DNA of 64,000 nt, taken from assembly GCA_003034855.1 (NCBI GenBank), contig PZKD01000100.1, positions 124,001-188,000 on the forward strand, written 5' to 3'. A program made the position numbers and the translations under genes. Source of the DNA: an archaeon SCG-AAA382B04 (GTDB lineage: Archaea > Halobacteriota > Methanonatronarchaeia > Methanonatronarchaeales > Methanonatronarchaeaceae). Every line of letters starts with the position of its first letter. The stretch's first letter is position 1. The notes beneath the pieces were generated by a model, which had not been told where the DNA came from, made no database searches, and saw nothing but the letters and a program-made list of their open reading frames with translations. Of the stretch, positions 196-13,680 are shown one piece after another.

Positions 196-230
196 AGGCC
201 TAGTATATCATTAAAGTATTTTTTTAAATT

Positions 231-305
231 GCTCCGATAGTGTAGTCCGGCCAATCATCTCGGCTTCTCGAGCCGAAGACCGGGGTTCAAATCCCCGTCG
301 GAGCA
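231..305 (+). tRNA. tRNA-Glu (anticodon CTC)
   Basis: A complete cloverleaf can be folded. The 7-bp acceptor stem GCTCCGA/TCGGAGC is followed by discriminator A at 305. The anticodon arm TCGGC-TTCTCGA-GCCGA gives anticodon CTC. The T arm is CGGGG-TTCAAAT-CCCCG. The 3' CCA is not encoded. The sequence agrees with archaeal tRNA-Glu in general layout. Its 3' half is echoed twice downstream (1152-1190 and 6317-6355), as expected if this tRNA is an integration target. Confidence 0.95.
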
Positions 306-490
306 TCTAAACAAATTCCTCCACAAAACAAAGAACAAACCAAAAAACAATTTAACCACCATTTTTATCTGTAAAACACAAAAAAACCAAAAAACAAACA
401 AAATCCAACCAAGATTCAAACCAATATTTGGAAAACCGTTTCAACCTAAAAAGAACATAATTTCAAGAAACCTGATAAAAAAGACACATC

Positions 491-745
491 TTAGCGATAT
501 CCTCTTCCTCTTCTAAAAGCATTTTCAACCCAAACAACTCCTTCCTCAACCAAGTATTCAAATCTATGCGGCCTAATTCTCAACCTATACATCTCGTTCT
601 CCTTACTCTTAAGCTTCTTTATATCCGCACCACTCCTAGACTTATAAGGGTTTTCCTTAAGATTTTCCAATTTCTCCTTGATCCTTTCCTTCTCTCCTAC
701 TTCCTCAATATAATCGACAACTCTTGGATGAATTCTTACCTCCAT
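491..745 (-). CDS. RelE/ParE-superfamily toxin
   Basis: An 84-residue basic protein with the RelE-fold layout: a short first strand (VRIHPRVV), two helices rich in Lys/Glu, the central NPYKSRSGADIKKLK segment, then strands YRLRIRPHRFEYLV and VVWVENAFRRGRGY ending in Arg/Tyr residues typical of mRNA-interferase C-termini. It is encoded immediately 3' of a small antitoxin-like gene. The antitoxin's TAG abuts this ATG with no gap and in the same frame. The probable role is ribosome-dependent mRNA cleavage or gyrase inhibition; the exact target cannot be read from sequence. It lies within the tRNA-Glu-bounded accessory region. Confidence 0.8.
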   Translation of the reverse strand: MEVRIHPRVVDYIEEVGEKERIKEKLENLKENPYKSRSGADIKKLKSKENEMYRLRIRPHRFEYLVEEGVVWVENAFRRGRGYR

Positions 746-940
746 CTATACCTCATCCAGCGGAATGTACTCTTCCTTTTCCTCCTGCAATCTCTCCCAT
801 TTTGCATCAATCAACTCCTCAACCTCTAGCTCCCTAAGATAATTCATCATCCTATTTAAGATCTCATCGTAAGTCTCACCCTTCTTACCAAACTTTTTAA
901 GTCTCTCACGAGTTTCCTCATCAAGTTGAACAGTAGTCAT
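746..940 (-). CDS. Antitoxin of the RelE-type pair (DUF7557-like)
   Basis: A 64-residue acidic protein starting MTTVQLDEETRERLKKFGKK. The TTVQLDEETRERL opening followed by GETYDEILNRM is the archaeal small-antitoxin pattern usually found next to RelE toxins. The start at 940 is chosen over a longer frame because AGGTGG lies just upstream and the longer N-terminus is hydrophobic and unlike the family. The stop codon is TAG and is directly followed, in frame, by the toxin ATG. It should neutralise the toxin and autoregulate the pair. Confidence 0.78.
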   Translation of the reverse strand: MTTVQLDEETRERLKKFGKKGETYDEILNRMMNYLRELEVEELIDAKWERLQEEKEEYIPLDEV

Positions 941-1151
941 ACATAACCACCTATAACAACACATAATAGTTAATAGCAAATACATTTAATGTTAAATTTA
1001 ACCCAACAATAATCAGTTAATAGAAAAAAGAAGATTTATTATTCTCATTGAGAAAAAGCGATTAAATAGATAAAAAAAAAACTTAAAAAAATTAAAATTA
1101 TTCAAAAAAAATTCTTAAAATACTCTAATAATTACACAAATAAGAGATTTG

Positions 1152-1190
1152 ATTTACGGTCAAATCTCGAACCCAAATCCCATCGGAGCA
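1152..1190 (+). repeat. Degenerate tRNA-Glu 3'-end copy (att-like)
   Basis: The segment ends in ATCGGAGCA, like the acceptor end of the tRNA at 231-305, and contains CCAAATCCC in place of TTCAAATCCCC of the T arm. It is also alignable, over about 39 bases starting ATTTACGG, with the copy at 6317-6355, and the two copies resemble each other more than either resembles the tRNA. This is what repeated integrase-mediated insertion at a tRNA would leave. No integrase gene is visible nearby. Confidence 0.6.
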
Positions 1191-1374
1191 TTATCGTTGG
1201 CCTTCAATACGTTCATCAGATGTTTTTATTTGTCTAGAGTAGGTTAAGTAATGTTTCTAATCTTTTTGTTAGTAATTAACTCTTATGATTTTTTATTTTT
1301 TTATTTTTGCTCTGACGGGTGACTTGGGTTTTGGGTTTGCCTGTAAGAGTGAAGAAAAGGTGAGTCGATTAATT

Positions 1375-1390
1375 GAATGAGGCCTCATTC
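1375..1390. promoter_or_regulatory. Perfect 16-bp palindrome
   Basis: GAATGAGGCCTCATTC is a perfect inverted repeat lying about 50 bases beyond the stop of the small minus-strand ORF at 1438-1560. It could be a protein-binding site or a hairpin at the transcript end. No T-run follows on either strand, so a simple terminator is not well supported. Confidence 0.35.
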
Positions 1391-1437
1391 CCTGTAAAAG
1401 ACAGTTTTCTCGGTAAAAAAATGGATTATAAAGACCA

Positions 1438-1560
1438 TTACTTTTTATTGAGATCCCGTCTATGTCTGCCAGTTATTAGTTTATATTGCTCAAAGCCTTT
1501 TTTATGGAAAAAATTTCCACATTCAGGACATCTTTTCATATCTAATTCTTTATCCCTCAT
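1438..1560 (-). CDS. 40-residue Cys-motif (zinc-ribbon-like) protein
   Basis: A short minus-strand frame begins with ATG at 1558-1560 and ends with TAA at 1438-1440. It encodes 40 residues containing KRCPECGNFFHKKGFEQY followed by GRHRRD. One CPxCG knuckle plus two His residues suggests a small metal-binding or nucleic-acid-binding protein, but a second Cys pair is absent, so this may be a fragment of a larger zinc-finger protein. A second ATG at residue 8 is an alternative start. No strong ribosome-binding site is seen. It sits between an att-like repeat and other debris. Confidence 0.45.
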   Translation of the reverse strand: MRDKELDMKRCPECGNFFHKKGFEQYKLITGRHRRDLNKK

Positions 1561-1731
1561 AAATAATAATTTTCTCTTAGAGAAGAAAAAATGTAAGATA
1601 TTCAAGAGTGCCTATCTCCCCACCTTGAAAGGAGGGTTTGTGGCTCAGTAAGCATTAGCATCATTTTTCGGGCTTGGATCCAAAAGATTGAGGGAGAAAA
1701 CTAAACAACTATCTCTTGGGAATTGGTTTCT

Positions 1732-1824
1732 ATGTTTGATCCATTAGAAAAGACCGAAGAGACAAGGAAAGAGATATGTAGGGGCTTGAAAAAGAAATAT
1801 TTTAGGATTGTTAACTGGGACTGA
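1732..1824 (+). pseudogene. N-terminal remnant resembling an archaeal radical SAM protein
   Basis: A 30-residue frame reads FDPLEKTEETRKEICRGL and continues KKKYFRIVNWD before TGA. The pattern DP-x-EKTEE-x-RKE-x-CRG-x-KKKYFR resembles the extreme N-terminus of some archaeal radical SAM proteins, where the Cx3Cx2C loop would follow. Here no Cys cluster follows in any frame and stops come quickly. I read it as a truncated gene end left in the island. The family assignment is from memory of the motif and is tentative. Confidence 0.28.
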
Positions 1825-1978
1825 GTTAGATTAAGTTGAGGAAAACTAACGAAGACGTCATAAGTGTATATCCCAACTTCACCAAACCCTACTTCTGGAA
1901 TGATGATTTTTGTTTCTAAAGACAATTTGATAAAAGATGAACATGAGTGTGAATCAAGCTCTAAGATTAATTATTTCC

Positions 1979-1995
1979 GGAGGAGTTACTCCTCC
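1979..1995. other. Short GC-rich hairpin
   Basis: GGAGGAGTTACTCCTCC forms a 7-bp stem with a three-base loop in otherwise AT-rich DNA, 28 bases beyond the 3' end of the minus-strand membrane protein gene that stops at 2023. It may be part of that transcript's terminator. About 150 bases upstream on the plus strand I see only gene debris. Confidence 0.35.
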
Positions 1996-2022
1996 AAAGA
2001 ATGAGGTTTTGGAAAACGAAGA

Positions 2023-2265
2023 CTAAACCTCATTTATCTTTGATCCAGTGTATTGGCCTAAGAAAAAGATCAAGAAAAAAACTGGTAGCCAAATTAGAGG
2101 GGTATCTGAATAAATTCTAAGATAAGCCACTATTGGAACAGGTAGATGTATTGCTAGGAACCATTTTAGACCAAATCTTTTATATTTATATCTGAAATAA
2201 CCGAAAGGTAAATTGATTAAAAACGTAATTAATAACGCAATAATCAAAGTTTTATTTATCACCAT
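2023..2265 (-). CDS. Conserved small membrane protein, unknown function
   Basis: An 80-residue protein with three hydrophobic segments (about residues 7-22, 35-50 and 56-72). The signature features are NLPFGYFRYKYKRFGLKWFL, then LAIHLPVPIVAYLR, then FFLGQYTGSKI. This architecture (FGYFR, KWF, HLPVP, GQ-x2-G) recurs in small uncharacterised archaeal and bacterial membrane proteins, so I consider it a real gene. An AGGGA lies six bases before the ATG. The stop codon is TAG. No functional inference is justified. Confidence 0.7.
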   Translation of the reverse strand: MVINKTLIIALLITFLINLPFGYFRYKYKRFGLKWFLAIHLPVPIVAYLRIYSDTPLIWLPVFFLIFFLGQYTGSKINEV

Positions 2266-2314
2266 CTTTTTATCCCTTTTTAGTAGAAGATGGAAAATAA
2301 AAAATAAAGAACAA

Positions 2315-2617
2315 TCATATGTTGAACCCTAATCGCCTAGCGCCTTCTTGGTAACTGATTGTTTCTTTCATTTCTTTGAGTACTTTGTCAACTGGCTCTC
2401 CTTCTCTAGCATCTCTTATGTCTTCGATTAATTTAAAAACAGTTTCTTGGTTTCCGTATCTACAAAATTCTTGTTTAGTGTATTTGTCGCTGTGTTGTTC
2501 TTTGGCTTCTGCCATTGGTGTTAGGTGATTGTTTCTTTTTTTACAATCAACAACGATTTCGTCTTGGAACCTGTCTTCGATATATTCCTCAATTTCTTTT
2601 TCTTCCACTTGCTTCAC
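2315..2617 (-). CDS. Hypothetical charged protein
   Basis: A 100-residue Glu/Lys-rich protein opening KQVEEKEIEEYIEDRF and ending ISYQEGARRLGFNI, with two isolated Cys and no membrane segment. The start is GTG at 2617. I do not recognise a family. It follows, on the same strand, the N-terminally truncated frame at 2659-2904, so the pair may be what is left of a small operon in the island. Confidence 0.45.
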   Translation of the reverse strand: MKQVEEKEIEEYIEDRFQDEIVVDCKKRNNHLTPMAEAKEQHSDKYTKQEFCRYGNQETVFKLIEDIRDAREGEPVDKVLKEMKETISYQEGARRLGFNI

Positions 2618-2658
2618 CTAAAAATTAAATTAATAGATAGTGGTCGGGTTAAGTTGTG

Positions 2659-2904
2659 TTACGTGTATCCTTCTACTTTTAGGGCATCGTGGATAATTTG
2701 TTTTATTTCTCTGTTAGCCATATTCTGTGCTGTTCTCCAATTCTTTGAATTACTTGGATTTTGTAGTAAAGTAGCTCTTACTACATCACTTGGCTCTAGG
2801 TCACGCATATTGAGTTTAGCTACTCCAACACTGATTCGTATAATGCTTTCTTTGTGTCTTATTTCTGTTTCTCCTTCATCAACTGCTTCTTTACCTAACC
2901 CAAA
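2659..2904 (-). pseudogene. Truncated hypothetical gene
   Basis: A minus-strand frame free of stops from 2904 to a TAA at 2659-2661 has protein-like composition (IIRISVGVAKLNMRDLEPSD, then RTAQNMANREIKQIIHDAL) but no plausible start codon at its 5' end, which begins right after a TGA. The first ATG (2806-2808) would give only 49 residues. The likeliest reading is a gene whose N-terminus was lost. It is followed by the hypothetical gene at 2315-2617. Family unknown. Confidence 0.42.
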
Positions 2905-2954
2905 TCACAATTACTCAATTTTGGGCAACTAAAACCAACCTCATAGTTCAATAA

Positions 2955-2976
2955 ATTAATTAATTAATTAATTAAT
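2955..2976. repeat. TTAA tetranucleotide run
   Basis: Five to six tandem TTAA units lie between the truncated frame at 2659-2904 and the transposon-end module at 3086. Nothing else is visible here. Confidence 0.6.
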
Positions 2977-3085
2977 AGCATTAGTTTTTTGCCCAAAAAG
3001 AAAAACGATATTTTGTCTATCAAACATAGCAATCCTTTATAATCTCATATGATCGAGCTCAATTACACCTACCGTAGTGGAATCA

Positions 3086-3127
3086 GTCAACTATCCCTCC
3101 CTAATCAAAGATTAGGAAGAAGGCTTC
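3086..3127 (-). mobile_element. IS200/IS605 right-end-like hairpin module
   Basis: On the minus strand the segment starts GAAGCC, folds as CCTAATC-TTTG-GATTAGG, and finishes GGATAGTTGAC. This is the usual form of IS200/IS605 (TnpB-type) right ends: AAGCC, a pyrimidine-rich arm, a hairpin, a purine-rich arm and a terminal G(T)TGAC/TCAC-like tetra- or pentanucleotide. No transposase gene accompanies it. It lies 12 bases beyond the stop codon of the P-type ATPase and on the same strand. Confidence 0.6.
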
Positions 3128-3139
3128 CTGGCACAGAAG

Positions 3140-5257
3140 TTAAAGTTCAGGTTTTATTTTTGAGAGCCTCATTGCATTTCCGGTGACGCCTAGAGTCATT
3201 CCTGCATCCCCTGCAAGAACTGCTAATGTGATTGTAACGTAGCCGAGTGGGACACCTATCGCGAGAGCAGCTTTTATGCCAAGACTTGCGAAGATGTTTT
3301 CTCTAATGACAGTTTTAGCTCTAGCTGAAAGGTTCTGTAGATAGGGGAGCTTAGATATGTCGTCTTGCATAAGTGCTATATCTGCAGTTTCTAGAGCTGT
3401 ATCTGTTCCGGCTGCACCCATTGCGATACCGATGTCAGCCGCTGCCAAAGCAGGGGCATCATTTATTCCGTCTCCTATCATCGCTGTGTTTCCATATTCT
3501 TTTGATAACTGGCGAATTGCTTCCACTTTTTCCTCAGGCATGAGCTCTGCACGGTAATCGTCGATTCCTATCCTTCCCGCAATTGCCTTTGCTGTATTTT
3601 CGTTATCGCCGGTGAGCATAACTGTCTTTATTCCAAAAGAGTTTAGCTTTTCCACAACCTTACCGGCCTCTGGCCTTACTTCATCTGCGACTGCAATAAT
3701 TCCTACAAGCTCGTTCTTTCTTGTGACCAAAATTGCTGTTTTTCCCTCATTCTGGAGGCGTGGAATAGTTTCTTCAACAAGGTTCAAGCAATTTTCCCTA
3801 CTACACATTCGTGTTGCTTCCTGCTTCACTCTCCTCATATTGCTGGAATGATGCACATGTTCAAGGTCAAAACCAAGTTCTTCAATGAGAGAAGGTTTTC
3901 CGGCGTAGTGCTCTTCCCCCTCCAAGTTAGCCTTCACTCCCTTGCCCTTGATTTCCCTGAACTCCTCAATACTATGATCATGACTAATATCATGGTTTTC
4001 TTTCACATGGTTTACAATCGCATCAGCTATCGGATGTTCACTTCTCTCCTCAACACCGCAGGCGCTGCGAATAACATCCTTCTGGCTTTGACCATTTAGA
4101 GGGATAATATCAGTCACGGTGAGATCTCCCTTAGTCAGAGTTCCTGTTTTGTCAAAGGCCATCACCTTGACTTCCCCAAGGGCCTCTAGAGTTGTTCCAC
4201 TCTCTATCAGCACTCCATTCTTCGCTGCACTGGTGATTCCAGAGACCACGCTTACTGGAGTACTGATGACAAATGCACATGGACATGCAAGCACAAGCAT
4301 AGTGATGGCTCGAACAAACCAGATAGCCCATGGCTCTCCCAAAAGGAGAGGGGGTAAAGCTCCGATAACAATCGCTATGATTACTACTCCAGGAGTATAG
4401 TATGAGGAAAATTTTTCGACAAACTTTTCATGCTTGGTTTTTTTTCTTTTAGCATCTTCAACTACATCTATAATTTTAGATATTGTGCTTTCGGAGGATT
4501 TGGTAGTGGTTTTCACCTCAAGATAACCCTGTTCGTTGATTGTTCCTGCGTAAACCTCGTCCCCTTCTGACTTATCAACCGGGATACTTTCCCCAGTTAT
4601 CGGGGCCTCGTTTATTGAGCTATTTCCTTCTATGACCTCTCCATCCACTGGAACACCCTCACCAGGTCTAATCACCACGGTGTCACCGACCTCCACTTCG
4701 CTTACAGGCACCTCTTCTTCTTCTCTTTCTCGCTTCACTACTGCTGTATCAGGTGAGAGATCCATAAGTTCCTGGAGCGATCCCTTCACCCTCTCGATGG
4801 AGTAACCCTCCAACAATTCAGCGAGGTTAAAGAGAAAAGCTAGGGTTGCTCCTTCTAGGGATATATGTTTCCCTCCAAAGACCGTGGCTATGATTGAGCC
4901 TATTATGGCAGAAGACATCAATAAGCTAATGTTGAGGTTTCTGTCCTTTATTGCTTTATAGCCATTTAGAAGTATCTTGTTTCCGCCTATTGCGATGCTA
5001 ATGAGGAAAAATATATCAGAAATGTAGAAAGTGTTTCCTAAACCTGTTCCTAGCACTAAATTAAGGTCGTGAAAGAAGTGAAGAATCAGGCCGAAGCCAA
5101 GTACAGCTCCTCCAATCCAATTCTTTATGGCTCTAGAGCTCTTCCAGACGCTTTTAACCTCTGAGTCATGACCATTTCCCACTGCTTCATCCTTTATATC
5201 TCCTCCTTTACCTGTACAACAGGCGTTAGATTTCTGATTCCCCTCACTCTCTGGCAT
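3140..5257 (-). CDS. zntA: Zn2+/Cd2+/Pb2+-translocating P1B-type ATPase
   Basis: A 705-residue heavy-metal efflux pump of the inner membrane. Visible motifs are TGES (actuator), CPC in membrane helix 6 (about residues 325-327, the P1B-2 Zn/Cd/Pb signature), DKTGTLTKG with the phosphorylated Asp near 368, SEHP (nucleotide-binding HP motif) and GDGINDAPAL near 593. There is no N-terminal ferredoxin-like metal domain; only a short tail with a CC pair (NACCTGKGG). The nucleotide-binding domain has an extra His/Cys-rich stretch (LEHVHHSSN, then RMCSRENCL). The start at 5257 is chosen because GAGGG lies eight bases upstream and a longer frame would run far into arsR. It overlaps the arsR end by 14 bases, so the two are co-transcribed and probably metal-induced. 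Confidence 0.93.
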   Translation of the reverse strand: MPESEGNQKSNACCTGKGGDIKDEAVGNGHDSEVKSVWKSSRAIKNWIGGAVLGFGLILHFFHDLNLVLGTGLGNTFYISDIFFLISIAIGGNKILLNGYKAIKDRNLNISLLMSSAIIGSIIATVFGGKHISLEGATLAFLFNLAELLEGYSIERVKGSLQELMDLSPDTAVVKREREEEEVPVSEVEVGDTVVIRPGEGVPVDGEVIEGNSSINEAPITGESIPVDKSEGDEVYAGTINEQGYLEVKTTTKSSESTISKIIDVVEDAKRKKTKHEKFVEKFSSYYTPGVVIIAIVIGALPPLLLGEPWAIWFVRAITMLVLACPCAFVISTPVSVVSGITSAAKNGVLIESGTTLEALGEVKVMAFDKTGTLTKGDLTVTDIIPLNGQSQKDVIRSACGVEERSEHPIADAIVNHVKENHDISHDHSIEEFREIKGKGVKANLEGEEHYAGKPSLIEELGFDLEHVHHSSNMRRVKQEATRMCSRENCLNLVEETIPRLQNEGKTAILVTRKNELVGIIAVADEVRPEAGKVVEKLNSFGIKTVMLTGDNENTAKAIAGRIGIDDYRAELMPEEKVEAIRQLSKEYGNTAMIGDGINDAPALAAADIGIAMGAAGTDTALETADIALMQDDISKLPYLQNLSARAKTVIRENIFASLGIKAALAIGVPLGYVTITLAVLAGDAGMTLGVTGNAMRLSKIKPEL

Positions 5258-5534
5258 GATCCATTCCCTCATGGAGAATTTTTGAAACATAGTTATCCTT
5301 GATCTCATAATATTTGTGTCGACCCTTTTTTTTATACTCGACAAGTTCCTTGTCTCTCAATCTCCTCAGGTGATGAGACACATTTGATAGCTCTTGATCG
5401 ATCTCCTCAGCCACTTCATGTACACACTTCTCTCCTTGAATAAGAGAAAAAAGTATTTCAATCCGGGTTCTGTCACCAAGAATCTTGAATGTTTCTTCCA
5501 TCTCTTTCAAATCCTCTATATTAGATGATTTCAT
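5244..5534 (-). CDS. arsR: ArsR/SmtB-family metal-sensing repressor
   Basis: A 96-residue winged-helix repressor: KILGDRTRIEILFSL opening, then recognition helix region ELSNVSHHLRRLRDKELVEY and wing KKKGRHKYYEI. Candidate metal ligands are GEKCVHEVAE (Cys/His at the alpha-3 position) and the C-terminal helix DNYVSKILHEGMDHARE. Its Asp, His and Glu match three of the four alpha-5 zinc ligands of SmtB, with Tyr in place of the fourth. It is first in an operon with the Zn/Cd ATPase. A perfect palindrome sits seven bases before its ATG, so autorepression relieved by Zn or Cd is the likely mechanism. Confidence 0.88.
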   Translation of the reverse strand: MKSSNIEDLKEMEETFKILGDRTRIEILFSLIQGEKCVHEVAEEIDQELSNVSHHLRRLRDKELVEYKKKGRHKYYEIKDNYVSKILHEGMDHARE

Positions 5535-5540
5535 GTTTAA

Positions 5541-5556
5541 TTGAATAAGTATTCAA
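5541..5556. promoter_or_regulatory. Probable ArsR operator
   Basis: TTGAATAAGTATTCAA is a perfect inverted repeat (7-2-7) immediately upstream of the arsR start. ArsR/SmtB operators are typically palindromes of the form TGAA-n6-TTCA, which this fits. Its position suggests that binding blocks transcription initiation of the arsR-ATPase operon. Confidence 0.7.
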
Positions 5557-5677
5557 ATTTTTAATTATTAAAGTTTTCCAAAAATCTGAGAAATAATAGA
5601 GATTTTATGTAATAAAAGGGTGAAACTTCCCTTCCAAAAAGAAGTGAAAACAAGCTTGACTAAGTAAGTTAGAGCTG

Positions 5678-5730
5678 GTGACTTCCTCCCCTACCAAAAT
5701 CAAAGATCTTGGAAGAGGTCTTCTCAACCA
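5678..5730 (-). mobile_element. IS200/IS605 right-end-like hairpin module
   Basis: Minus-strand reading: GAGAAGACCTCTTCC, a hairpin AAGATCTTTGATTTT, then GGTAGGGGAGGAAGTCAC. Nearly the same core appears at 20482-20534 on the opposite strand, including the flank TTATCTTAATGGTTGAGAAG. No transposase is nearby. It lies upstream of the arsR operon and about 45 bases beyond the end of the toxin gene at 5777, on that gene's strand. Confidence 0.58.
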
Positions 5731-5776
5731 TTAAAGATAAATTAATAATCTAATTTTAGCTAAAAATTTTTTAATC

Positions 5777-6043
5777 TTAAATTAATTTTGAAAAGTCATC
5801 ATATACATCATTTCTATGTCCAATAAATAGAACTATTACTTCTTCATCCTCGTTTTTTACCTCATATATTGCCCTATAATCTCCTACCCTCAATCTCCAG
5901 TACTTCAATCTCCTAAGCTTCTTTCCTTTTTTGGGCTTAGTCTTTAATTCATCTAATTTATCTTTTATTCGTTCTCTTGTTCGTTTTTCAAAATCTCTTA
6001 GACTTTCATTAGCTTTTAGGTGCAAAAGAACTCTATATGTCAT
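5777..6043 (-). CDS. relE: RelE-family toxin (mRNA interferase)
   Basis: An 88-residue RelE/StbE-type toxin. The helical N-terminus (LKANESLRDFEKRTRERIKD), the GKKLRRLKYWRLRVGDYRAIYEV core and the IVLFIGHRNDVY strand with its conserved His-Arg-x-Asp-x-Tyr ending are diagnostic of RelE. It should cleave mRNA on the ribosome when unbound by antitoxin. It begins six bases after the stop of the ribbon-helix-helix antitoxin gene, and the two are in the same frame with the antitoxin's TAG between them. Confidence 0.9.
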   Translation of the reverse strand: MTYRVLLHLKANESLRDFEKRTRERIKDKLDELKTKPKKGKKLRRLKYWRLRVGDYRAIYEVKNEDEEVIVLFIGHRNDVYDDFSKLI

Positions 6044-6049
6044 TAGACA

Positions 6050-6262
6050 CTACTCCAAAGGCACTAACTCATTAGAATTTTCTTCAGCTTCTCGGCTTCT
6101 TTTCTTTAGCATTTGATAAAATTCCCTAGTTTTTTCTCTTTCTTCAAATCGTGCTATTATAGTTCTAATTGCATCACTCCTGCTTTGAAACTTACCTTCT
6201 TCTACCCACCTATCAAGTAGCTTCACCATTTCTTCTGAGACCCTAGTTTGAACTTGAGGCAT
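6050..6262 (-). CDS. relB: Ribbon-helix-helix antitoxin
   Basis: A 70-residue protein whose first 40 residues form a ribbon-helix-helix DNA-binding domain (MPQVQTRVSEEMVKLLDRWV, then FQSRSDAIRTIIARF). The charged C-terminal tail presumably wraps the toxin. The start at 6262 is preferred over an upstream extension that would read through the att-like repeat. It ends with TAG, two codons before the toxin ATG. Expected roles are toxin neutralisation and repression of its own promoter. Confidence 0.87.
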   Translation of the reverse strand: MPQVQTRVSEEMVKLLDRWVEEGKFQSRSDAIRTIIARFEEREKTREFYQMLKKRSREAEENSNELVPLE

Positions 6263-6649
6263 AAATATCTTGTAAACACATATATTTACAAAATACTTAA
6301 ATTCTCTTACAACAAAATTTACGGGCAAAACCCGAATCCAAATCCCTGTTGGAGCATAATTATCTAAATAATTCCCTCCACGAAACAAAAGACCAAGTCA
6401 CAAATGGTTTGAACACCACTTTCACCCGCAAAACATCAACTCAGATCTTTTAGAAAAAAACCTTAAATCAACCCCGCTAAAAATAGTTTTCTAACTTACC
6501 TCTCTAGCTATCATTATCTACCATACACCTCTCAACACCAAACCCTGGAACACTTACCCCGTCTCCCTAATATTCCACCTCTCCAAAAATGAGATCTTAG
6601 AAAAACGAACAGGATAAAATTAAAAACTTGTAACGACTAAAAGAAGTGA
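6263..6649. other. Non-coding stretch bounding the accessory region
   Basis: No protein gene is supported here. The first 170 bases contain the tRNA 3'-end copy (6317-6355) and about 70 further bases that still align with the DNA just downstream of tRNA-Glu (TCTAAA, then CCTCCAC-AAACAAA and CACC-CTT/TTT-GCAAAACA). The rest is unremarkable AT-rich sequence before the lipoprotein gene. Confidence 0.5.
6317..6355 (+). repeat. Degenerate tRNA-Glu 3'-end copy (att-like, distal)
   Basis: It ends in TTGGAGCA and contains CCAAATCCC, matching the T arm and acceptor end of tRNA-Glu at 231-305. Similarity continues past the tRNA into the downstream flank, showing that a tRNA-plus-flank segment was duplicated. 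With the copy at 1152-1190 it marks a nested set of boundaries around the toxin-antitoxin and metal-resistance genes. Confidence 0.65.
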
Positions 6650-7446: not shown

Positions 7447-7905
7447 ATGAAGGAAAATGATTATAAATTGTTTAGAGAAGATCTGAAGAATTTATTTATA
7501 ATATTAGGTATCTTTTATTTCATTGCTATTGTTTTATGGTTTTGCTTCGATTCCATTTTTTATCTTGTAAATTTTGTAATTATTGGAACATCTCTTGGAC
7601 TTGGAATTGGTTTATGGCCAATTTTTTCAAGAGAAAAACGAGATATCGCACGTCAAATCAGTCAAATTTTAGTAGGTGGATATTTATTCTTTGGAATTGG
7701 CTTTGGCTTAATTTTTGTTTTCTTTGGAAGAATCACTCCTGAAAATATGCAATTTGAGGGGTTCTGGTTTTGGTTATTAGCCGGTTCATATGCAGCTGCG
7801 GTACTTCACTACCTTATAGCCAAAATTTTTGGTCCTTTCCTATTTAATAGAGGATGGTGTGGATGGGCTTGCTGGACAGCTGCAGTTCTTGATCTCCTGC
7901 CCTAG
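7447..7905 (+). CDS. Membrane 4Fe-4S protein, N-terminal half (ends at in-frame TAG)
   Basis: 152 residues with four hydrophobic segments ending in FNRGWCGWACWTAAVLDLLP and a TAG at 7903-7905. The CGWACW element is the cysteine motif of NapH/NosR/CcoG-like membrane polyferredoxins. Twelve sense codons after the TAG, the same frame runs into the ATG at 7942 of the C-terminal half, and the linker (SSGKIKNLGKMKYIHF) reads like uninterrupted family sequence. The TAG is therefore either a nonsense mutation, probably from a Tyr codon, or an amber codon read through (for example as pyrrolysine). As written, the half-protein lacks all ferredoxin clusters. Confidence 0.75.
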   Translation: MKENDYKLFREDLKNLFIILGIFYFIAIVLWFCFDSIFYLVNFVIIGTSLGLGIGLWPIFSREKRDIARQISQILVGGYLFFGIGFGLIFVFFGRITPENMQFEGFWFWLLAGSYAAAVLHYLIAKIFGPFLFNRGWCGWACWTAAVLDLLP

Positions 7906-7941
7906 GATAATAGCTCTGGCAAAATTAAGAATCTGGGAAAA

Positions 7942-8445
7942 ATGAAGTATATTCACTTCATCGTGAGCATGGCTCTAGTGATAGTGCTTGTGTTTGGTTT
8001 CGATTATTCTCTTCAAATAATTCATGGAAGTGTTGACTTGGCTTCAGGAGAACAATTCTTTTCTATTTTCAATATCCCTAGCTTTTGGTGGTTTTTAATC
8101 GGCAACGTTGTTTACTATGTGAGTGGTATTTTGTTGGCCTGGTTTTTAGAAGATAATAGGGCTTTTTGTAAGTACCTATGTCCAATTGCTTGTTTTTTAA
8201 AAATAGGTTCTTCCCATTCAGTTGTTAGAATTGAGGGAGATAGCGAAAAATGCATACATTGTGGTTCCTGTGACAAAGCCTGCCCTATGGATATAGAGGT
8301 TTCAAAATATGTAAAGGAAAGAATTCGTGTAAGTTCAAGTGAATGCATCTTATGTCAAAGATGTGTCAACTCCTGTCCCGAAAAAATCCTAGAAACGACA
8401 GATAAAATCAATTGGAACCATGTTGAATATTTAAACTACAGATGA
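7942..8445 (+). CDS. Membrane 4Fe-4S protein, C-terminal half
   Basis: 167 residues, in frame with the preceding half. Two membrane segments are followed by FCKYLCPIACF (the second NapH-type cysteine motif) and two ferredoxin clusters, CIHCGSCDKACP and CILCQRCVNSCP. Together with the upstream 152 residues this makes one NapH/CcoG-like electron-transfer protein with four to six membrane helices and a cytoplasmic polyferredoxin domain. No ribosome-binding site precedes the ATG at 7942, so independent translation is doubtful. A hairpin overlaps its stop codon. Confidence 0.75.
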   Translation: MKYIHFIVSMALVIVLVFGFDYSLQIIHGSVDLASGEQFFSIFNIPSFWWFLIGNVVYYVSGILLAWFLEDNRAFCKYLCPIACFLKIGSSHSVVRIEGDSEKCIHCGSCDKACPMDIEVSKYVKERIRVSSSECILCQRCVNSCPEKILETTDKINWNHVEYLNYR

Positions 8446-11506: not shown

Positions 11507-12595
11507 CTAATTTTCTTTTTTATATCTTATCCAAAGAAGTACTCCACCAACGACTAAGGGGGCACCCATCAAGGTCCAGTATAAGAGGTTTTTGATTAGA
11601 GAAATTCCTCCGCCATATGCATGGACACTTCCACTTATTTGTAGGCCTCCTCTTGTGATTAGAGTTGCGAATATTACTAAGGAAAATGTTATGAAGGTAA
11701 ATGCATGGGCTAGATATTTGTATTCTTTTGTTTTTTCGTATCTAGCTTGTAGGTGGAGAAAAGCAGTTCCTGTTAACCATGGAAGAAGTGATGCGTTTTC
11801 TACTGGGTCCCAGGCCCAATAACCTCCCCATCCTAATGTGACATACGCCCACAATGCACCTATTCCTATTCCTATAGTTAGAAAGAGCCATCCAATTCTA
11901 CTCCATATTTTTGATAGTTTAAACCAGTCTTTTCTTCCCGTTATAGCATAAACAAATGATGCAGACATTGGTATGGTGAATGTTGCATAGCCGATGAATA
12001 ATACCGGAGGATGAACTAGCATCCAGGGACTTAGAAGCATTGAGTTCATTCCTGCTGCTCTAACCCAAACTGTTTTTAATAAATTTATTGATAGATCATT
12101 TGGAATATTTGGTTGAGCTGCTGCTCTAGCTAATAATTCCGCAGAAGTTGAGGTAAATGGTTTACTACCTATAAGGATGAGGGTGAATAATAATATTATT
12201 AAAAGAGTTATTGGTCTTCCTATGTTCAAGAGTTCTTGAGTTTTTGTGTCTTTTTTGGAAAACCAATATTCTGTTATTCCTAATGAGGCTATTACTATAA
12301 ATATCCATAAAAAGACTGAGCCAATTCTACCTGCCCAAACTGAGGAAAGTTTATAAAACCAAGGGAAAGTAGGGAGTGAATGATAATAAGAGTAAAAAAT
12401 ATCTGGGTTTGCAGTTAAGCAATGATACATAAATGTTCCAAATGAGAATGTGAATATTAGGGTTGTTAGATATGTGGAGATTTTTGCATATTTCTTGTAT
12501 TCTCCCATAGAGGTTCGAACATATTTTATTGAGAAATATATTCCACTTAGAATTGGAAGGATTGTTAACCATAAAAAAACTGAACCTATCCCCAT
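11507..12595 (-). CDS. ccmF: Cytochrome c heme lyase CcmF, N-terminal/WWD part
   Basis: 362 residues, about nine hydrophobic segments. The heme-handling WWD domain is explicit: WGGYWAWDPVENASLLPWL near residues 256-274. The flanking histidine segments are MYHCL, LVHPPVLFIGY and HLQARYEKT, and the periplasmic CcmF feature is GSKPF. It attaches heme covalently to CxxCH apocytochromes outside the membrane. Bacterial CcmF is about 650 residues; here the C-terminal part is encoded by a separate, divergent gene at 12754. The presence of both implies the organism makes c-type cytochromes. It ends with TAG. Confidence 0.88.
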   Translation of the reverse strand: MGIGSVFLWLTILPILSGIYFSIKYVRTSMGEYKKYAKISTYLTTLIFTFSFGTFMYHCLTANPDIFYSYYHSLPTFPWFYKLSSVWAGRIGSVFLWIFIVIASLGITEYWFSKKDTKTQELLNIGRPITLLIILLFTLILIGSKPFTSTSAELLARAAAQPNIPNDLSINLLKTVWVRAAGMNSMLLSPWMLVHPPVLFIGYATFTIPMSASFVYAITGRKDWFKLSKIWSRIGWLFLTIGIGIGALWAYVTLGWGGYWAWDPVENASLLPWLTGTAFLHLQARYEKTKEYKYLAHAFTFITFSLVIFATLITRGGLQISGSVHAYGGGISLIKNLLYWTLMGAPLVVGGVLLWIRYKKEN

Positions 12596-12753
12596 TTTTG
12601 ATTCCTCTTATTTTAGTAAATTTAATACTTCTATCGTTTTTATTATCTATAACTCAACAATGTTTAGTTAGTTTTTTAGGATTAAAACTTTGATAAATAT
12701 TAAAAGAAGATATATTTAAATTTAATGTATCATTATCAAATACGGTAGATAAA

Positions 12754-13680
12754 ATGAGGAAAATAATCAAAGAAGTAAATTTAAGCAATTTATTAACTAT
12801 AACTTCTCTCTTATTAGGTATAATGGCGTTTATTATAGTAGTAGGAATATTCTCAGGTGCAAACAAACCATATTACAATTTCAGAGTAGGATTCATAATG
12901 TATTTCCTAATGCTTACAATGACTACCTGTCTTCTTCTCTCCCGTTTCGGAAGAAAAGATGGAGCTTATACTGCAATTGGAGCTTTCATAATAAGTCTGA
13001 TTTTTGTATTTACCTCAATGTTCAACAACTTCTTTTTAGATGCAACAATCCCCTTGGTGATTGTATCTGCTTTTGCCTCATTATCTGAGATATATAGAAA
13101 TATACAACATGGAGAATTATTAGATAAAATAAAAAATGTCTCTCCTCATATAATTCATTTAGCAGTAGTTATCTTAATAACTGGAGTTTTATTAACTTCC
13201 ATATTTGCAACTACTACAACTCTAACCTTCACACAAGATGGTCAAAGAACATTCGAGGGATATACATTAAAATATGATGGATTTGATGTCGAAAACCTAG
13301 GTTTTGCTGAACACTATAATTATGAATTCAGTATATACAAAGATGGGTCATTACAAGGAACAGCAACGATAAAGGGGGTTAATAAAACCCAAATAAGTTG
13401 GCGACCAGGAATTTACAATTCAGTAACAGAAGACATTTATTTAAGCTTAAGAGGCACAGGTGCTCAAGGAATCTCAATTAATGCTAAAATGGTTCCCTAT
13501 CCAATACTCCTCTGGATGGGAGTTGTTTTATTAGCTACTGGTATAACAATGAGGTTGGGAGTATCATGGTTAAAAAAGCGAGAAAAACCAAAAAAGCCAC
13601 ATAAAGAAAAGACTAAGAAATCATACGATGAAAAAATCGAAGAAGAATTAGAAAAAATTAGGGAGGAAAAAGAGAGTTGA
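12754..13680 (+). CDS. CcmF C-terminal-like membrane protein (split heme lyase partner)
   Basis: 308 residues with four membrane helices in the first 120 residues, one near 133-152 (HIIHLAVVILITGVLLTSIF) and one near 245-265. Between them lies an extracytoplasmic beta domain (FTQDGQRTFEGYTLKYDGFD, and later ISWRPGIYNSVTEDIYLSL). This is the layout of the CcmF C-terminal domain, including the HxGH-like heme-axial His (SPHIIHLA). A charged cytoplasmic tail follows. Its 3' end overlaps the next gene by four bases, linking heme attachment to the two secreted proteins downstream. Confidence 0.8.
   Translation: MRKIIKEVNLSNLLTITSLLLGIMAFIIVVGIFSGANKPYYNFRVGFIMYFLMLTMTTCLLLSRFGRKDGAYTAIGAFIISLIFVFTSMFNNFFLDATIPLVIVSAFASLSEIYRNIQHGELLDKIKNVSPHIIHLAVVILITGVLLTSIFATTTTLTFTQDGQRTFEGYTLKYDGFDVENLGFAEHYNYEFSIYKDGSLQGTATIKGVNKTQISWRPGIYNSVTEDIYLSLRGTGAQGISINAKMVPYPILLWMGVVLLATGITMRLGVSWLKKREKPKKPHKEKTKKSYDEKIEEELEKIREEKES

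Follow-up and report, generated by a model that had tools for sequence, protein, structure and literature searches.

A probable recent nonsense mutation at a tryptophan codon of a NapH-like polyferredoxin gene in a member of the Methanonatronarchaeia

Introduction

Published members of the genera Methanonatronarchaeum and Methanohalarchaeum use pyrrolysine (Pyl) (PMC5852551; PMC9071458), and Candidatus Methanohalarchaeum thermophilum HMET1 carries two PylRS/tRNA-Pyl pairs (PMC9071458). Some Methanonatronarchaeia have been reported to lack mcr (PMC10873845). The Pyl-containing methylamine methyltransferases MtmB and MttB of this class resemble the gene described here: their reading frames are open except for a single TAG, and they come from the same taxonomic family. 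They differ from it in that their genome carries PylS and tRNA-Pyl, whereas here the homologues have Trp at the position and none of the pyl genes searched for was found.

Two further systems invite comparison. Proteins of the NapH/MauN family (TIGR02163) share with the present protein the membrane segments, the CGWxCW and CKYxCP motifs and two C-terminal [4Fe-4S] clusters. Recent nonsense pseudogenes have just one stop, created in one step at a conserved residue, and no further damage as yet; the present gene matches them in these respects, with no notable difference.

Results

A polyferredoxin gene interrupted by a single TAG

The window (the whole 64,000-nucleotide stretch of the archaeon SCG-AAA382B04 that was analysed) was translated on its forward strand. 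As the preliminary description had held, the frame at 7447–8445 is continuous, giving 332 codons and a stop, with the TAG at 7903–7905, directly 3′ of CGWACWTAAVLDLLP, as its sole internal stop. A search of the organism's own genome likewise reported one TAG inside the gene at this locus. The features discussed below are as follows.

7447–8445, forward strand: NapH/CcoG-like membrane polyferredoxin gene interrupted by TAG, 332 codons plus stop (translation; TIGR02163 score 63.5 bits, cut-off 213; homologues 38–57% identical over nearly the full length)
7903–7905, forward strand: in-frame TAG (amber), codon 153 (TGG, Trp, in 22 of 32 relatives; opposite TGG in the Asgard DNA alignment)
7447–7902, forward strand: N-terminal fragment of 152 amino acids, covering the membrane region and the first CGWACW motif; the product predicted for termination at the TAG (Fer4_5 match, residues 124–151)
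7906–8445, forward strand: C-terminal part, in which the linker, the CKYLCP motif and both [4Fe-4S] cysteine clusters are conserved (Fer4_7, E 1.5e-11; near-invariant residues kept)
7942–8445, forward strand: possible downstream ORF of 167 amino acids from an internal in-frame ATG; reinitiation candidate without a clear Shine–Dalgarno (SD) sequence

Given the composition of the window, the 179 codons 3′ of the TAG had a chance of only ∼2e-6 of staying open, and the C-terminal half gave Fer4 matches (E 1.5e-11), indicating that 7447–8445 is one interrupted gene. Homologues align across the TAG position. No intact paralogue was found in the own genome, where the other matches cover the ferredoxin part only.

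Since the protein scored 63.5 bits against NCBIfam TIGR02163 (NapH/MauN), under the curated cut-off of 213.05, its sequence assigns it to a membrane polyferredoxin subfamily that is related to NapH but separate from NapH itself; unlike NapH/MauN genes, this copy is also interrupted. Homologues of near-full length (38–57% identical) occur in many anaerobic bacteria and in a few archaea (Heimdallarchaeota, Lokiarchaeota and Thermoplasmatota). Among 100 genomes of the phylum, a close match was found only in the own genome (the next best had an E value of 3e-20), which suggests that the gene was gained by horizontal transfer. Solved structures gave sequence matches for the ferredoxin part only (FwdF, MvhB and complex I ferredoxins). 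A search of the gene neighbourhoods of homologues for a partner turned up nothing shared by more than three loci, and the window took part in none of the recurrences.

Several homologues elsewhere are also broken. One Lokiarchaeal copy (L065:3983-5022) is one base short in an A-run that immediately follows LLPW, a second (L043:4001-5172) is disrupted by multiple stops, a shift of frame and ∼170 inserted bases, and a copy from Anaerolineae (L067:17-432) has a frame change; no intact close second copy was found in either Lokiarchaeal genome. The frameshift of L065 lies in the same linker as the TAG and might have hinted at programmed recoding, but this reading was rejected because the loss of one base in an A-run is simpler. 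Counting the window, three of five archaeal copies are broken compared with about one of 31 bacterial copies, a post hoc comparison of small numbers.

The stop stands at a conserved aromatic position

At the position of the TAG, 22 of the 32 intact homologues have Trp (TGG), six Tyr (TAT/TAC), three Phe (TTY) and one Glu (GAA). Position 153, directly after a D-x-x-P motif, is thus aromatic in 31 of 32, and no homologue has TAG at the equivalent codon. In a DNA alignment with the closest archaeal (Asgard) homologues the TAG stands opposite TGG, so that a single step separates the stop codon from the codon found in intact homologues. From these alignments, the simplest origin of the stop is one G-to-A transition, TGG to TAG; Tyr is possible as the ancestral residue but appears less likely than Trp. 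A fresh nonsense mutation one base from Tyr, with Tyr expected in the homologues, had been one of two options offered earlier. The nonsense mutation is supported, but its source would be Trp rather than Tyr, which only the six homologues have.

The gene beyond the stop is undecayed

When identity to homologues in the C-terminal part was divided by that in the N-terminal part, the own protein gave 0.780, within the 0.749–0.898 spanned by the 32 intact homologues. Near-invariant residues are kept at 71 of 73 positions, and the two exceptions, F115Y and R167K, are conservative and lie one on each side of the stop. As had been proposed, the 12 codons that follow the TAG up to the ATG at 7942 still read as family linker (DNSSGKIKNLGK compared with EDSEGRVKGLGK in L038). 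Compared with the 32 intact homologues, no second lesion or excess divergence was found, and the further damage to this copy that the preliminary description had named as a sign against a suppressed codon is thus not seen. Relaxed constraint or additional lesions, as in older nonsense pseudogenes, are likewise absent, as expected if the stop is very recent. The undecayed state of the gene indicates that the stop is very young, that it is an error, or that it is tolerated by readthrough.

Since there is no second lesion, a sequence error or strain variant would look identical to a young mutation. The main rival to a recent nonsense mutation is a one-base fault of sequencing, assembly or consensus, or else a strain variant present in the minority, in which case the true gene would carry TGG and be intact. 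A single base is enough for this, the assembly consists of 132 contigs and the rest of the gene is undamaged; on the other hand, the change is a transition of the usual kind, and contigs with good coverage seldom contain substitution errors. We regard this explanation as unlikely.

TAG is an ordinary terminator in this archaeon

Stop codons were counted for the 53 other non-overlapping ORFs of at least 120 codons within the window, giving 29 TAA, 13 TAG and 11 TGA. Since 13 of the 53 end in TAG, TAG is a normal stop in this archaeon. From a TAG to the next stop these ORFs have 0–53 codons, compared with 179 in the polyferredoxin gene.

These counts bear on the possibility that a near-cognate tRNA reads the TAG at a low level, providing some full-length protein and keeping the C-terminal half under selection. 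Readthrough with purifying selection past in-frame stops has been argued for bacteria (PMC7918605), and the conservation of the C-terminal half and of the 12 linker codons after the stop would fit. However, a very recent mutation accounts for the same conservation, TAG serves as a normal terminator in the window and no suppressor tRNA was found among 35 tRNA genes, making such readthrough decidedly improbable.

Alternatively, the two halves might be made separately and assemble in the membrane, the second half being produced by reinitiation at the ATG at 7942. This ATG is in frame, 36 bases past the stop and just before the next hydrophobic segment. The preliminary description had pointed to the lack of a ribosome-binding site there, and indeed no clear SD sequence is present; this says little, because of 31 window genes examined 14 have an SD-like motif and 17 do not, and no clear ribosome-binding site precedes the ATG at 7447, the gene's own start, either. 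The missing SD sequence counts against a split but does not exclude reinitiation. Two further observations argue against it: the linker codons that separate the stop from the ATG still match the family (DNSSGKIKNLGK compared with EDSEGRVKGLGK in L038), whereas in an old split they would have drifted, and none of the 32 homologues is split in this way. A functional split thus seems highly improbable.

The pyrrolysine machinery searched for is missing from the own genome

The second option offered earlier was a suppressed amber codon giving a Pyl-containing redox protein. The own genome (1.42 Mb, 93% complete, 132 contigs) gave no match over the cut-off for PylS, two weak matches being HisRS and PheRS alpha, and no match for the PylS N-terminal domain, PylD, MttB, MtmB or McrA. 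For PylC only weak partial matches were obtained, within the range of Pyl-free genomes. The biosynthesis genes covered were pylC and pylD. When the same searches were applied to a genome of the sister genus (G001) as a positive control, they recovered two PylS, divergent forms of PylC and PylD, and both MtmB and MttB with TAG in frame.

A covariance model for tRNA-Pyl was built from three sequences from relatives. It recovered both tRNA-Pyl of G001, at 71 and 46 bits, the 46-bit copy being the second one and not part of the model. In the own genome its best matches were tRNA-Gly(UCC) and tRNA-Arg(GCG), at 36 and 29 bits. None of the 35 tRNA genes of the own genome has the anticodon CUA; the set was obtained with ARAGORN, and genes missed or misread by the program, which carry apparent introns, were read by eye. 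One tRNA-Pyl of G001 (L130:14490-14576) has an apparent insertion, possibly an intron, in its anticodon loop. By its features G001 fits Candidatus Methanohalarchaeum thermophilum HMET1.

In a 93% complete genome, then, pylS, pylC, pylD and tRNA-Pyl were not found, which is part of what had been named beforehand as refuting the pyrrolysine reading, and MtmB and MttB were missing as well, all of which the sister genus has. The incompleteness of the genome leaves a small chance that a pyl locus went unseen. Nor is TAG conserved at the position in homologues, where an aromatic residue stands in 31 of 32. The use of Pyl by published relatives, including two PylS, tRNA-Pyl and TAG-containing MtmB and MttB in the sister genus, speaks for decoding as pyrrolysine, but against these findings we consider it extremely improbable. 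At the level that these protein and RNA searches with positive controls allow, the pyrrolysine reading was rejected for the own genome. This genome belongs to a Pyl-using family and is itself without the Pyl system searched for, which it lost or never had.

The own genome (G000) lacks mcrA, MtmB, MttB and the searched pyl genes, and cytochrome c assembly genes are present in the window at 11507–13680. The organism is apparently a non-methanogenic member of the family of the Pyl-using methanogen G001.

A possible element remnant nearby

A tRNA-Glu (CTC) gene lies at 230–307 of the window; its 3′ end is matched at 21 of 28 positions at 6331–6358, and a shorter partial copy occurs near 1170–1192. 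Toxin–antitoxin-like genes of the ParE/RHH type are found in between, at 494–745 and 5777–6388. The region 230–6358 resembles what is left of an element that had integrated at tRNA-Glu (CTC), and the polyferredoxin gene is located just outside it.

Discussion

We conclude that the TAG is probably a nonsense mutation of recent date in a NapH-like polyferredoxin gene, derived most likely from TGG (Trp153), and not a pyrrolysine codon. A single G-to-A change would recently have converted the Trp153 codon TGG to TAG; the TAG would be obeyed as a stop, ending translation after 152 residues. The predicted product would be without the CKYLCP motif and both [4Fe-4S] clusters, and electron-transfer function would presumably be lost. 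Our inference is that the base at the TAG is genuine, not introduced by assembly or sequencing, and that the 152-residue fragment has no activity. Since this copy has no other damage, the stop is either very recent or an error, and priors favour a young mutation over error or readthrough.

It seems very unlikely that this Pyl-free relative of the methanogens of the Methanonatronarchaeia has kept a functional redox gene in which TAG at a Trp position is read through by a near-cognate or undetected suppressor tRNA. If readthrough were true, the locus would exemplify suppression of a stop codon in an archaeon that lacks pyrrolysine. The main lesson of the locus is that a lone TAG in a gene of an archaeon does not amount to evidence for pyrrolysine, even where relatives of the genome use Pyl.
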